A stretch of DNA of 33,373 nucleotides from Chloroflexota bacterium. GTDB lineage: Bacteria > Chloroflexota > Anaerolineae > Aggregatilineales > Phototrophicaceae. The notes beneath the pieces are model-generated. The model did not search any database, had not been told where the DNA came from, and worked only from the letters and a program-made list of their open reading frames with translations. Location of the stretch: NCBI GenBank assembly GCA_026706395.1, contig JAPOYU010000130.1:7168-40540 (forward strand), written 5' to 3'. Below, piece by piece: positions 7,399 through 32,380 of this stretch; positions within the stretch are counted from its first letter, which is position 1; the number at the start of each line of letters is the position of its first letter. Both the position numbers and the translations under genes were made by a program.

Positions 7399-7540
7399 TC
7401 CTTGCGAAACTCACAATTACTACGAAATCCGCCAAGTTTTGCTCCCCTTCCCTCCTTGTGGGATGCTCGCCATAGAGATGGCGAGAGGGGCCGGGGGATG
7501 GGGGGACGAATTGTGCAAGCGCCCAGTACCGGACAAGCAT
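7399..7540 (+). repeat. Composite intergenic repeat with one nested stem
   Basis: GATCCTTGCGAAACTCA..ATTACTACGAAATCCGC is shared with 9213-9250. It leads into the G-rich palindrome starting at 7444. Inside that loop a second perfect palindrome is present: CTCGCCAT at 7466-7473, AGAG loop, ATGGCGAG at 7478-7485. The unit ends with a spacer (CAGTACCGGACAAGC) shared with the next copy, which abuts at 7541. The DNA at 7231-7398 is A+T-richer; I see no gene in it. Confidence 0.7.
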
Positions 7541-7794
7541 TGTAAGGGATGATCGGTATTTCAAATTTCATGGATAGTCAACTGAAAGAATATTGAAACC
7601 TTACCAAAAAAAGACGATCAATCCGTGCACATGCGAACTGATTGCAAGAAAATCCGCAAAACTTAGCTCCCCTTCCCTGATTTATCGGATGCCCGCCATA
7701 GAGATGGCGGGAAGGGGCCGGGGGATGGGGTAAAAAAGCGTGTCAAGCACCCAATACCGGACAAGCCTTGTAGGGGCGAGCCTTGGGTCGCCCG
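7541..7794 (+). repeat. Composite intergenic repeat, copy B, with one nested stem
   Basis: Almost the same as 2677-2937, but the palindrome loop contains a 22-base insertion bearing CCCGCCAT (7692-7699), AGAG, ATGGCGGG (7704-7711), a perfect 8-bp stem. Relative to the stem at 7466-7485, the second base pair is changed on both sides (T-A to C-G), so pairing is kept. It ends TTGTAGGGGCGAG and CGCCCG. Confidence 0.75.
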
Positions 7795-9076: not shown

Positions 9077-9254
9077 CCTAGCTCCCCTTCCCTCTTTATT
9101 GGATGCTCGCCAGACGTGGCTGTGTCTACGCGCCACTAGAGATGGCGAGAGGGGCCGGGGGAGGGGTAAAAAAGCGTGTCCCGCCCTAATACCAATCAAG
9201 CCCCATAGGCGCGATCCTTGCGAAACTCAACAAATTACTACGAAATCCGCAAAA
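9077..9254 (+). repeat. Composite repeat with doubly nested palindrome, tandem unit 1
   Basis: The unit begins CCTAGCTCCCCTTCCC and repeats with a 178-bp period at 9255. The outer G-rich palindrome contains a CTCGCCA...TGGCGAG stem, and that stem's loop in turn holds 24 extra bases (9113-9136) with a third hairpin: GTGGC (9116-9120), core TGTCTACGCG (9123-9132), closing GCCAC (9132-9136). It ends with a tail (CGATCCTTGCGAAACTCA...AAATCCGC) that also precedes the copy at 7399. Confidence 0.75.
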
Positions 9255-9395
9255 CCTAGCTCCCCTTCCCTGATTCATCGGATGCCCGCCAGACGTGGCT
9301 GTGTCTACGCGCCACTAGAGATGGCGAGAGGGGCCGGGGGATGGGGTAAAAAAGCGTGTCCCGCCCTAATACCAATCAAGCCCCATAGGGGTGGC
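9255..9395 (+). repeat. Composite repeat with doubly nested palindrome, tandem unit 2
   Basis: Same order as 9077-9254: outer palindrome, inner stem (CCCGCCA...TGGCGAG), and innermost 24-base hairpin at 9292-9315 with GTGGC, TGTCTACGCG and GCCAC. The spacer GTGTCCCGCCCTAATACCAA and the end AGCCCCATAGG are shared with unit 1. Confidence 0.75.
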
Positions 9396-9535: not shown

Positions 9536-9706
9536 GCCATTATGAATGCCAAATCGCCCGTCCAGCATCCAACCCGAAAACATGATGATCCCAACCCAAA
9601 CACAACTTTCAACGCGCAAAATCCGCAGTTTCAGCCCGAAAATGCCCCTGTATCTATACTGTATCGATATAGAATGGGAAGTAAGTTATATATTAATAAT
9701 ATGAAG

Positions 9707-9787
9707 ATGTCCTCTATATGTCCTTTATGTATACTCTTGTGGTCCTTTATGCACCTTTTTGCGTCGTTTTGCATCTTTTTGCGTCGG
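9707..9787 (+). repeat. A+T-rich minisatellite-like region
   Basis: Two 11-bp units (ATGTCCTCTAT, ATGTCCTTTAT) at 9707-9728, a related GGTCCTTTAT at 9741-9750, then a 20-bp unit CTTTTTGCGTCGTTTTGCAT at 9755-9774 restarting at 9775. Base composition is clearly lower in G+C than the surrounding genes. Apart from this, the LexA-type box and the repeats, I see nothing assignable in 8955-10035. Confidence 0.55.
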
Positions 9788-10035
9788 AGTGACAAGACCT
9801 TGACAGGACACAAACAATGGCAAAACATCTCCAACTGCGCTCCCGTCAAGAGGCGACAGCGGACTCAGATGGCCAGATGGCCAAAAAAATATTTCCGCAA
9901 CAGCCGGCGTCCGCTCATGCGCCACACTGAACCCGACCGCAGCATTCGCAGCCCGGCCGGCAATTGCGTTATTTGCCGTATACGTTTGCATCGGGTATTC
10001 TCGCTCGATATCGCCATTTGGAAATGAGACGAGAC

Positions 10036-31306: not shown

Positions 31307-32380
31307 TCAGCTAGCTGCCGGCGTCAATATTGTCTTCTCCGCGGCGTCGACAGTCTCATCATAGAGGAAGCACTTAACGCTGCGCCCTTCGTGCTGCACT
31401 GTCGGTGGAATATTGTTGTGGCAGATATCCATCACAGCCGGGCAGCGTCCAGCAAATTTGCAGCCGGTGCGCGTATACTCATCGACTTCGATGACCGCCA
31501 GGTCGATCTTTTCGTCCCAGGCTTCTTCCGACTTAATGCTCGGAATAGAAGTCTTGAGGTTCTGCGTGTAGGGATGGAGCGGATTCCCCAATACGCGCTC
31601 AGTGGGTCCCATCTCGACGATCCAGCCACGCAGCATCACGGCGATGCGGTCGCCGGTGTAATAGGCGGTCGCCAGGTCGTGCGTGATGTATATGACGCTT
31701 ACGTTGTTGTCTTCCTTGAGCTTGCGGAACATGTTCACAATCGACATGCGCAGTGAGGCATCGAGCATCGACACCGGTTCGTCGGCGACAATCAGAGAGG
31801 GCTTGGTGATCAATGCCCGCGCGATAGCGACGCGCTGCGCTTGCCCGCCAGATAACTCGTTGGGATAACGCCCGGCGATCTCCGCCAGCGTCAAGCCGAC
31901 CTCGCTCAACACCTCGTTTACATAGCGCGGCGTTTCCTTCTTGTCAGCCACCATCTTGTAATTCTGCGCCGTCTCATAAAGATAGCTGTCGATGCGCTTC
32001 AGCGGACTAAAGGCGGCGAATGGATCTTGGAAGACCGGCTGCACCTCGCGGTAAAACCAGGTCTTCATTTCCTTGCGGCTGATGTCATTGATGACTCGGT
32101 TTTTGTAGCGCAGGATGCCCTCGGACGAGGACTCCATGCCCAGCACCATCTTGGCCAAGGTGGTCTTGCCACTGCCGCTTTCACCGACCACGGCGAAAAT
32201 CTCCGGCTTGTCGGAATCAATGACGATAGAGGCGTTATCGACGGCGTGAAAGTCTTGCGAGGCAAAACCTTGGCGGAGATGAAAGACTTTGGACAGTTTC
32301 TCAATCTGAAGGAGTGGCGCGTAGACATTGCCACCTTGTGGCTTAGACTGCGAGTCACGCGTAGACACTGTGACCTCCAT
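31307..32380 (-). CDS. Oligopeptide/dipeptide-type ABC transporter ATPase (DppF/OppF-like)
   Basis: 357 residues. Walker A GESGSGKTT, Q-loop QPVFQDPFAAFSPL, signature LSGGQAQRVAIARAL, Walker B LIVADEPVSMLD, H-loop ITHDLATA, and the C-terminal OppF-type zone LHPYTQNL with a cysteine cluster (CKFAGRCPAVMDIC). It pairs with the upstream ATPase to drive an importer of the peptide/nickel family whose permeases and receptor must lie beyond the right edge. A perfect ribosome site (GAGGAGGAG) fixes the start at 32380, overlapping dppD by 26 bp. The N-terminal 25 residues are encoded across two 21-bp hairpin elements (32314-32334, 32354-32374), giving VTVSTRDS and GGNVYAPL. Confidence 0.92.
   Translation of the reverse strand: MEVTVSTRDSQSKPQGGNVYAPLLQIEKLSKVFHLRQGFASQDFHAVDNASIVIDSDKPEIFAVVGESGSGKTTLAKMVLGMESSSEGILRYKNRVINDISRKEMKTWFYREVQPVFQDPFAAFSPLKRIDSYLYETAQNYKMVADKKETPRYVNEVLSEVGLTLAEIAGRYPNELSGGQAQRVAIARALITKPSLIVADEPVSMLDASLRMSIVNMFRKLKEDNNVSVIYITHDLATAYYTGDRIAVMLRGWIVEMGPTERVLGNPLHPYTQNLKTSIPSIKSEEAWDEKIDLAVIEVDEYTRTGCKFAGRCPAVMDICHNNIPPTVQHEGRSVKCFLYDETVDAAEKTILTPAAS
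32314..32334 (-). repeat. 21-bp hairpin element with TGTCTACGCG core, inside the 5' end of dppF
   Basis: Read on the minus strand: GTGGC, AA, core TGTCTACGCG, CCAC, with GTGGC pairing to GCCAC. It differs in two bases from the elements at 9116-9136 and 9295-9315 in the intergenic repeats. Confidence 0.65.
32354..32374 (-). repeat. 21-bp hairpin element with TGTCTACGCG core, at the dppD/dppF junction
   Basis: Read on the minus strand: GTCAC, AG, core TGTCTACGCG, TGAC, with GTCAC pairing to GTGAC. The core matches the other elements, while the stem is different but still complementary. It encodes the last residues and stop codon of dppD and codons 3-9 of dppF. Confidence 0.6.

Follow-up and report, generated by a model that had tools for sequence, protein, structure and literature searches.

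The innermost level of a set of nested palindromes in the Chloroflexota contig JAPOYU010000130.1 is probably a non-autonomous mobile hairpin of 22 or 24 nt, as judged from its sequence and distribution. The window, i.e., the whole stretch of 33,373 nt that was analyzed, contained five copies of a C/G-rich palindrome: one plain, two with a second hairpin in the loop (level 2), and two in which the level-2 hairpin held a further one (level 3, hereafter the small hairpin). The small hairpin was dispersed in high copy number, occurred in genes as well as in hairpin tips and inside its own loop, and retained its base pairing while the letters of its stem varied. Comparison of filled and empty sites indicated that its presence or absence is that of one block without target duplication. 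Being 22–24 nt long and without a gene, with one conserved loop and with stem letters that are free to vary, it would be a mobile-looking element near the size floor. The relevant features of the window were as follows:

1397–1443, + strand: plain C/G-rich palindrome, a divergent member missed by the sequence-only reading
2677–2896, + strand: longer repeat with the plain copy (palindrome 2802–2849, stem 2805–2832, 10-nt loop)
2885–2935, + strand: GTAG REP, GTAG + GGGCGAGC .. CTTG .. GCTCGCCC, with an interior of 31 nt
7441–7502, + strand: C/G-rich palindrome with a level-2 hairpin, 8-bp stem CTCGCCAT (7466–7473) / ATGGCGAG (7478–7485)
7541–7781, + strand: second longer repeat, holding the C/G-rich palindrome 7666–7733 with the 21-nt level-2 difference at 7688–7708
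7770–7793, + strand: GTAG REP like that at 2885–2935, without the small hairpin and with the loop CTTG (identified by eye)
9081–9168, + strand: C/G-rich palindrome with level-2 arms 9106–9112 / 9143–9149 and the 24-nt small hairpin 9113–9136
9259–9348, + strand: C/G-rich palindrome with level-2 arms 9285–9291 / 9322–9328 and the small hairpin 9292–9315
32314–32334, − strand: small hairpin with a GTGGC stem at the start of gene 31307–32380 (−), read as GGNVYAP
32354–32374, − strand: small hairpin with a GTCAC stem, coding for both the last residues of the upstream gene (GGHSVYA*) and the first ones of the gene that follows (VTVSTRD)

The sequence-only reading had described a series of five copies with palindromes nested in palindromes; the series is real, and all copies were located with small corrections. 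The plain copy at 2805–2832 was as described, consisting of CCCCTTCCC, the 10-nt loop TGATTTATCG and GGGAAGGGG. A second perfect 8-bp stem had been reported for two copies and was present in both, that of palindrome 7666–7733 being CCCGCCAT (7692–7699) / ATGGCGGG (7704–7711), while the C-rich arm of this copy starts at 7669 rather than 7673. The further 24 bases with a third hairpin, placed in the copies at 9083 and 9261, correspond to 9113–9136 (stem 9116–9120 / 9132–9136) and 9292–9315, and the 9259 copy minus these 24 nt equals the level-2 form. The level-2 hairpin of the copies at 7441 and 7666 was GCCATAGAGATGGC, and the 24-nt level-3 addition was GACGTGGCTGTGTCTACGCGCCAC. As for the paired change thought to preserve the level-2 stems, three copies retained the pairing and one did not, since the stem of the 9259 copy (CCCGCCA / TGGCGAG) has one C–A mismatch and is hence imperfect; the 3′ partner of this change falls within the 3′ arm of the host repeat itself. 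The repeats 2677–2896 and 7541–7781 matched closely on either side (95% over 148 nt upstream) and differed in length by exactly 21 nt, that is, by the level-2 hairpin. The level-3 loop GTCTACGCG occurred five times in the window versus 0.28 expected, a number equalled in none of 100 shuffles: two copies lay in the nests, one in the GTAGGGGCGAGC..GCTCGCCC palindrome 2885–2935, the tip of which is a divergent small-hairpin copy (2897–2923), and two at the gene start 32314–32374. The sequence-only reading had overlooked the three that are not part of the nests.

The small hairpin consists of a G-N-M prefix, a stem, the loop (A/T/G)GTGTCTACGC and the complementary stem, and measures 22 nt with a 4-bp stem or 24 nt with a 5-bp stem. 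At least four Watson–Crick pairs enclosed the 11-nt loop in 199 of the 243 distinct copies, versus 0.6% of random places, copies closer than 90 nt to a locus end being left out of this count; the other 44 copies, with fewer than four pairs, were excluded from the counts of tips, genes, frames, duplications, prefixes, self-nesting and gene-site hairpins given below. There were 17 different 4-bp stems among the copies. In the 194 copies whose loci had been chosen without regard to the stem (loci L001–L034, selected with a 5-bp-stem pattern, were set aside), Watson–Crick pairs were found at stem positions 1–4 in 178, 186, 178 and 170 copies, versus 165, 80, 96 and 95 if the columns were independent, and position 5 was at chance level (40 versus 39 expected). 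The covariation score was 0.716 for an alignment of 60 of the 88 distinct 21-mers, hand-chosen to cover every stem type with failures included, versus 0.217 after shuffling (reached in 0 of 500 shuffles) and 0.035–0.172 for slid partners. It should be noted that the constancy of the loop is partly an artefact because the copies were gathered by their loop. The prefix began with G in 177 of 199 copies, and the base 3′ of the unit was C or T in 173. In predicted folds of the two level-3 copies (9081 and 9259), GTG pairs with CGC inside the loop, leaving a single bulged base and TCTA at the tip.

The pattern GTGTCTACGCG was found 42–261 times per genome in 12 relatives, its reversed form 0–6 times. 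Among the 154 genomes of the order, 33 contained at least 10 copies and the remaining 121 no more than five; none of 300 further genomes, an even sample of the phylum, had more than six. The clade referred to below is a block of 32 genomes in the genome list, a term that carries no claim of kinship, and comprises 30 of those 33 together with G120 and G125, which had none; G076, G090 and G100 had at least 10 copies and lay outside the block. The first 9.6 kb of the window was matched by all 30 clade genomes searched. A scan with GTGGCNNTGTCTACGCGCCAC over 84,980 species, one genome per species, yielded 34 stretches, all titled Chloroflexi, Chloroflexota or Anaerolineae; the contexts inspected were the level-2 tip, TAGGGGCGACC..GGTCGCCC tips and apparent genes. 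Arrays of the small hairpin in 22-nt tandem were found in G090 and G076, both outside the clade. Meanwhile, two units 22 nt apart were observed at locus L092 of G104, a genome with only four matches in all.

The sequence-only reading had suggested that small hairpin units insert into hairpin tips, and for level 3 the data agree: the unit is an independent dispersed element, and its removal restores host palindromes at many places. After removal in silico, a host stem of at least 7 bp formed at 55 of 199 places, versus 8.8 on average, and never more than 16, in 200 flank shuffles, the copies in this test being non-independent because REPs multiply. In these 55 restored hosts, the unit lay directly 3′ of the host 5′ arm in 43 and after one base in 12. 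When both sides were given equal freedom, the unpaired part was longer 3′ of the unit in 59 cases, longer 5′ in three and of equal length in three. A search made without the loop motif gave 356 GTAG-type REPs (stem of at least 7 bp), with interiors of 2–7 nt in 291, 25–31 nt in 39, 45–51 nt in 13 (eight of them a unit in a unit, by eye) and other lengths in 13. The interiors clustered near 3–7, 26–29 and 48–51 nt, i.e., in steps of 22 nt. Among 38 REPs with an interior of 24–30 nt, the exact loop was present in 29, a loop with up to two mismatches in 32, and the opposite-strand loop in at least three more. In 24 of 199 copies, the small hairpin lay inside an older copy, at GTGTC^TACGC. A three-level palindrome was found at L248: GTACGGGCGAGC(GATCTGCAGTGTC(GGC GGTC loop GACC)TACGCGCAG)CGGTG GCTCGCCC. 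Altogether, the unit occupied tips of RAYT-type GTAG REPs, the level-2 hairpin of the window, C/G-rich repeats and its own loop. Against a simple tip rule, one REP subfamily carried the unit at the opposite loop edge, and the cut in self-nesting was in mid-loop. In some tip copies, both stem and host are identical (e.g., GGGCGTTT), and these probably arose by amplification of a REP that already contained the unit. Given this subfamily and the gene sites outside hairpins (see below), the tip copies may reflect a preference, survivor bias or partly amplified composites.

Genes, called with a codon-usage script rather than taken from annotation, made up 83% of the copy-holding loci, yet carried only 21 of the 199 copies. 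The 5-bp-stem (24-nt) form accounted for 20 of the 21 gene copies versus 44 of 178 outside genes; in loci not picked by stem, i.e., without L001–L034, the figures were 7/8 and 22/148 (Fisher p = 2.8 × 10−5). The near exclusiveness of the 24-nt form in genes is best explained by maintenance of the reading frame. One of the 21, the copy at 11202 of L245, lies within a C-rich palindrome and was probably assigned to a gene in error; it was counted in the frame test and left out of the gene-site hairpin test, in which a stem of at least 4 bp was found at 1 of 20 sites versus about 10% of random places, so that no hairpin was required at these sites. The GTGGC form had five of six frames open. The clearest case in genes was the operon joint to which the two gene copies of the window belong, where translations revealed two units in the window, two in G010 and three in G009 (one of them worn), whereas the related joint of G011 (MSQSEPLLQIE) was without a unit and thus lacked the small hairpin of 32354–32374; in G008, the preceding gene had a 24-nt unit close to its end (IEPKH[DVAVSTRH]FVACH). 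These copies show a route to in-frame eight-residue inserts in bacterial proteins.

An empty counterpart, in a related gene or another repeat copy, was found by alignment for 22 of 176 copies, those less than 150 nt from a locus end having been dropped. The gap was 24 nt in nine, 22 nt in five and 13–23 nt in the other eight, mostly in poorer alignments. In one gene gap of G007, two copies of a REP were found near each other, one filled and the other empty. No target duplication was detected: the left flank ended with the 3′ arm in 5 of 127 units of 22 nt (shuffled mean 3.8) and in 1 of 29 units of 24 nt (shuffled mean 0.08). The small hairpin shares this insertion without target duplication with IS200/IS605-type elements.

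The level-2 hairpin was likewise dispersed in the clade: CGCCATAGAGATGGCG, with one mismatch allowed, was found 81 times in G115 and 55 times in G125, and its reversed control in neither. G127, G128, G130 and G131 had more than 100 loops each and only one or two level-2 hairpins, whereas G125 had no level-3 loop; the contrast indicates that levels 2 and 3 are separate families. Among the in-clade copies inspected, all were seen by eye to lie in C/G-rich repeats except one (L228 at 4756), so that independent movement of level 2 is no more than a possibility, and its stem often continued into the host arm. In G003, a level-2 hairpin was present inside a C/G-rich repeat in the gene gap that corresponds to 1397–1443 of the window. 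Consequently, the insertion series proposed by the sequence-only reading holds for level 3; for level 2, there is an exact 21-nt difference, yet one almost confined to a single repeat family. Long perfect palindromes centred on the level-2 hairpin were also noticed at the contig ends of L211 and L220, where they are probably assembly fold-backs.

A search for a RayT-type gene had been recommended, and RAYT-like genes were indeed present, although not flanked by the small hairpin. Such a protein was read in G004 (L255:1456–2115, − strand), and as a query it matched 77 of the 154 genomes of the order, namely, 26 of 32 clade genomes and 51 of 122 others. The six clade genomes without a match, in which the assemblies may be incomplete, and the frequency of RAYTs where the unit is absent (51/122) both count against a RAYT as the mover. 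Inverted TAGGGGC palindromes were found close to both ends of the RAYT gene in 20 of 25 clade loci (L260–L284) and close to one end in five, which identifies the palindrome hosting most tip insertions as a GTAG REP. The loop motif of the small hairpin (one mismatch) was found in 3 of these 25 loci, never close on both sides. Since RAYTs do not have the small hairpin at their flanks, a RAYT is no more than a candidate that may move it, as far as can be judged from these loci. RAYT-like genes ringed by inverted GTAG REPs were common in the order (L260–L289; L255), and in L274, one of the three loci with the loop motif (one mismatch), this motif occurred near 1568, within the RAYT-matched stretch 1501–1965. 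It should be noted that Pfam PF01797 overlooked many RAYT-like genes of the order. Absence of a Y1 transposase from the clade, considered when Pfam gave none in G008, G003 and others, was discarded after the RAYT protein query found four in G008 and two in G003; weak PF01797 matches in frames of 642–661 aa were also set aside, the one that was read (L251) not being transposase-like.

Enzymes of the Y1 type bind hairpins of about 20–25 nt on single-stranded DNA and act via single-stranded circles (PMC6006769). By analogy, single-strand chemistry of this type is considered the likeliest kind of mechanism, with about an even chance within the overall reading, and we favour single-strand transposition by a RAYT/HUH-type enzyme, with RAYTs as the first candidates. 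The unit would move as single-stranded DNA, would be recognised by the enzyme as a folded hairpin, as in IS200/IS605 and REP/RAYT systems, and would be joined to DNA exposed as a single strand, for example in the tips of hairpins. Nesting would then result from repeated insertion, with level 2 placed at the loop edge of the C/G-rich repeat and the small unit subsequently entering one base pair below the level-2 tip. More tentatively, and as a claim that we think rather doubtful when taken as a whole, the transposon could be a single-stranded DNA dumbbell of 22–24 nt. As a closed circle, it would have a 4–5-bp stem capped on one side by the 11-nt loop and on the other by G-N-M as a 3-nt loop; the circle would open at the joint of the 3′ arm and G-N-M and enter at the joint of the host 5′ arm and loop, so that donor and target geometry would be alike. 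One tip cutting-joining activity would give insertion, 22-nt tandem arrays and nested palindromes, and the stem letters would be free because only the loop and the pairing are read; self-nesting (cut TC^TA) and hairpin-free gene sites would need a second, looser mode.

Several other origins were weighed against a mobile hairpin. The hairpin may be immobile by itself, having invaded a small number of GTAG REPs and C/G-rich repeats that were then spread by RAYTs; such a passenger would fit the several tip copies with common host and stem and the RAYT genes surrounded by REPs, but bare 24-nt units in genes, self-nesting, the tandem arrays of G090 and G076 and the many distinct host/stem pairs make it unlikely. 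Template switching can turn imperfect palindromes perfect and would yield paired changes. Together with replication slippage at hairpins, where polymerases pause at the tips, it might copy the unit and correct its stems without a dedicated enzyme; in view of the fixed sizes of 22 and 24 nt, a single conserved loop at hundreds of unlinked places and the confinement to one part of the phylum, this explanation is improbable. A kept loop with a covarying stem is also typical of RNA hairpins, and insertion of a small RNA hairpin copied into DNA, comparable to that of yeast GC clusters, would follow an idea in print for yeast mitochondria (PMC4478555); as the unit has neither a tail nor a target duplication, we regard an RNA-borne origin as quite improbable.

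Two further readings were rejected. Stepwise loss from a long nested form, the alternative offered by the sequence-only reading, gained no supporting point and is very improbable, since plain hosts are in the majority (291 of 356 REPs, with interiors of 2–7 nt), related genes without the insert exist, and G125 combines 55 level-2 hairpins with zero level-3 loops. The arms are C/G-rich and of low complexity, and randomly varying junctions had been named in advance as the sign of an alignment artefact; however, the junctions are fixed to the base, the 21- and 24-nt blocks separate near-identical copies, and units occur in genes, so that an artefact is hardly credible. Insertion of a mobile hairpin is preferred. 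With a natural series of sites that are empty, filled once or twice, or in genes, the origin of nested palindromes and REP loop variants can be tested directly; the series also supplies natural substrates in the search for an enzyme that would read the loops of hairpins and join their tips.

GTAG REPs and REPINs (RAYT, TnpA-REP) resemble the small hairpin in being short, high-copy and mostly outside genes, with some inside; they are the main hosts here, with RAYT genes among them. The small hairpin, however, has no GTAG at its 5′ foot, where the host palindromes do have it, and carries GTAG only within the loop on the other strand; RAYT genes are not flanked by it, and REP tips are among its own insertion sites. 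The small dispersed repeats (SDR) of Nostoc, a member of another phylum, reportedly measure about 21–27 nt and insert in other repeats, and would thus be alike in size and in insertion in repeats. The GTAG REP and REPIN features used for comparison are those of PMC3116915, PMC3733652 and PMC6006769; PMC6306507 was also among the papers used for comparison. CGTC REPs (dRS3 of Neisseria, RPE-4/RPE-6 of Rickettsia) are also short, have no known dedicated transposase and occur in genes too, but are defined by stems of 8–9 bp and loops of 4–5 nt (PMC3733652), whereas the small hairpin has a 4–5-bp stem and an 11-nt loop and falls outside this definition. The plan was not known to the sequence-only reading from any named element; insertion of one palindrome within another is nevertheless in print for Volvox organelle DNA, with units averaging 50 nt (PMC2670323), and among the hairpin elements of sponge (PMC2800124) and yeast (PMC4478555) mitochondria, units are likewise found inserted within one another. 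All three are organellar and longer than the small hairpin, and in the sponge and yeast elements the stems are kept and the loops vary, the reverse of the present case. REP-targeting insertion sequences such as ISPsy8 and IS1397 break the palindrome at a fixed point (PMC1525189), but are full insertion sequences with transposase genes, whereas the small hairpin has only 22–24 nt. A search of the bacterial literature, in a collection with few subscription journals, revealed no description of the unit or of 22-nt self-nesting, and Rfam gave no window match at or above the gathering threshold of any family.

Two minor features of the window were also observed. The sequence GGGAAGGGGCCGGGGGATGGGG (2824–2847, and other C/G-rich copies) has four G runs and, judging by its composition, might form a G-quadruplex. 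Degenerate short repeats in a run (TGTCCT.., TTTTGCGTCG) occupy 9640–9790 and are present in the same gene gap in G003 as well.
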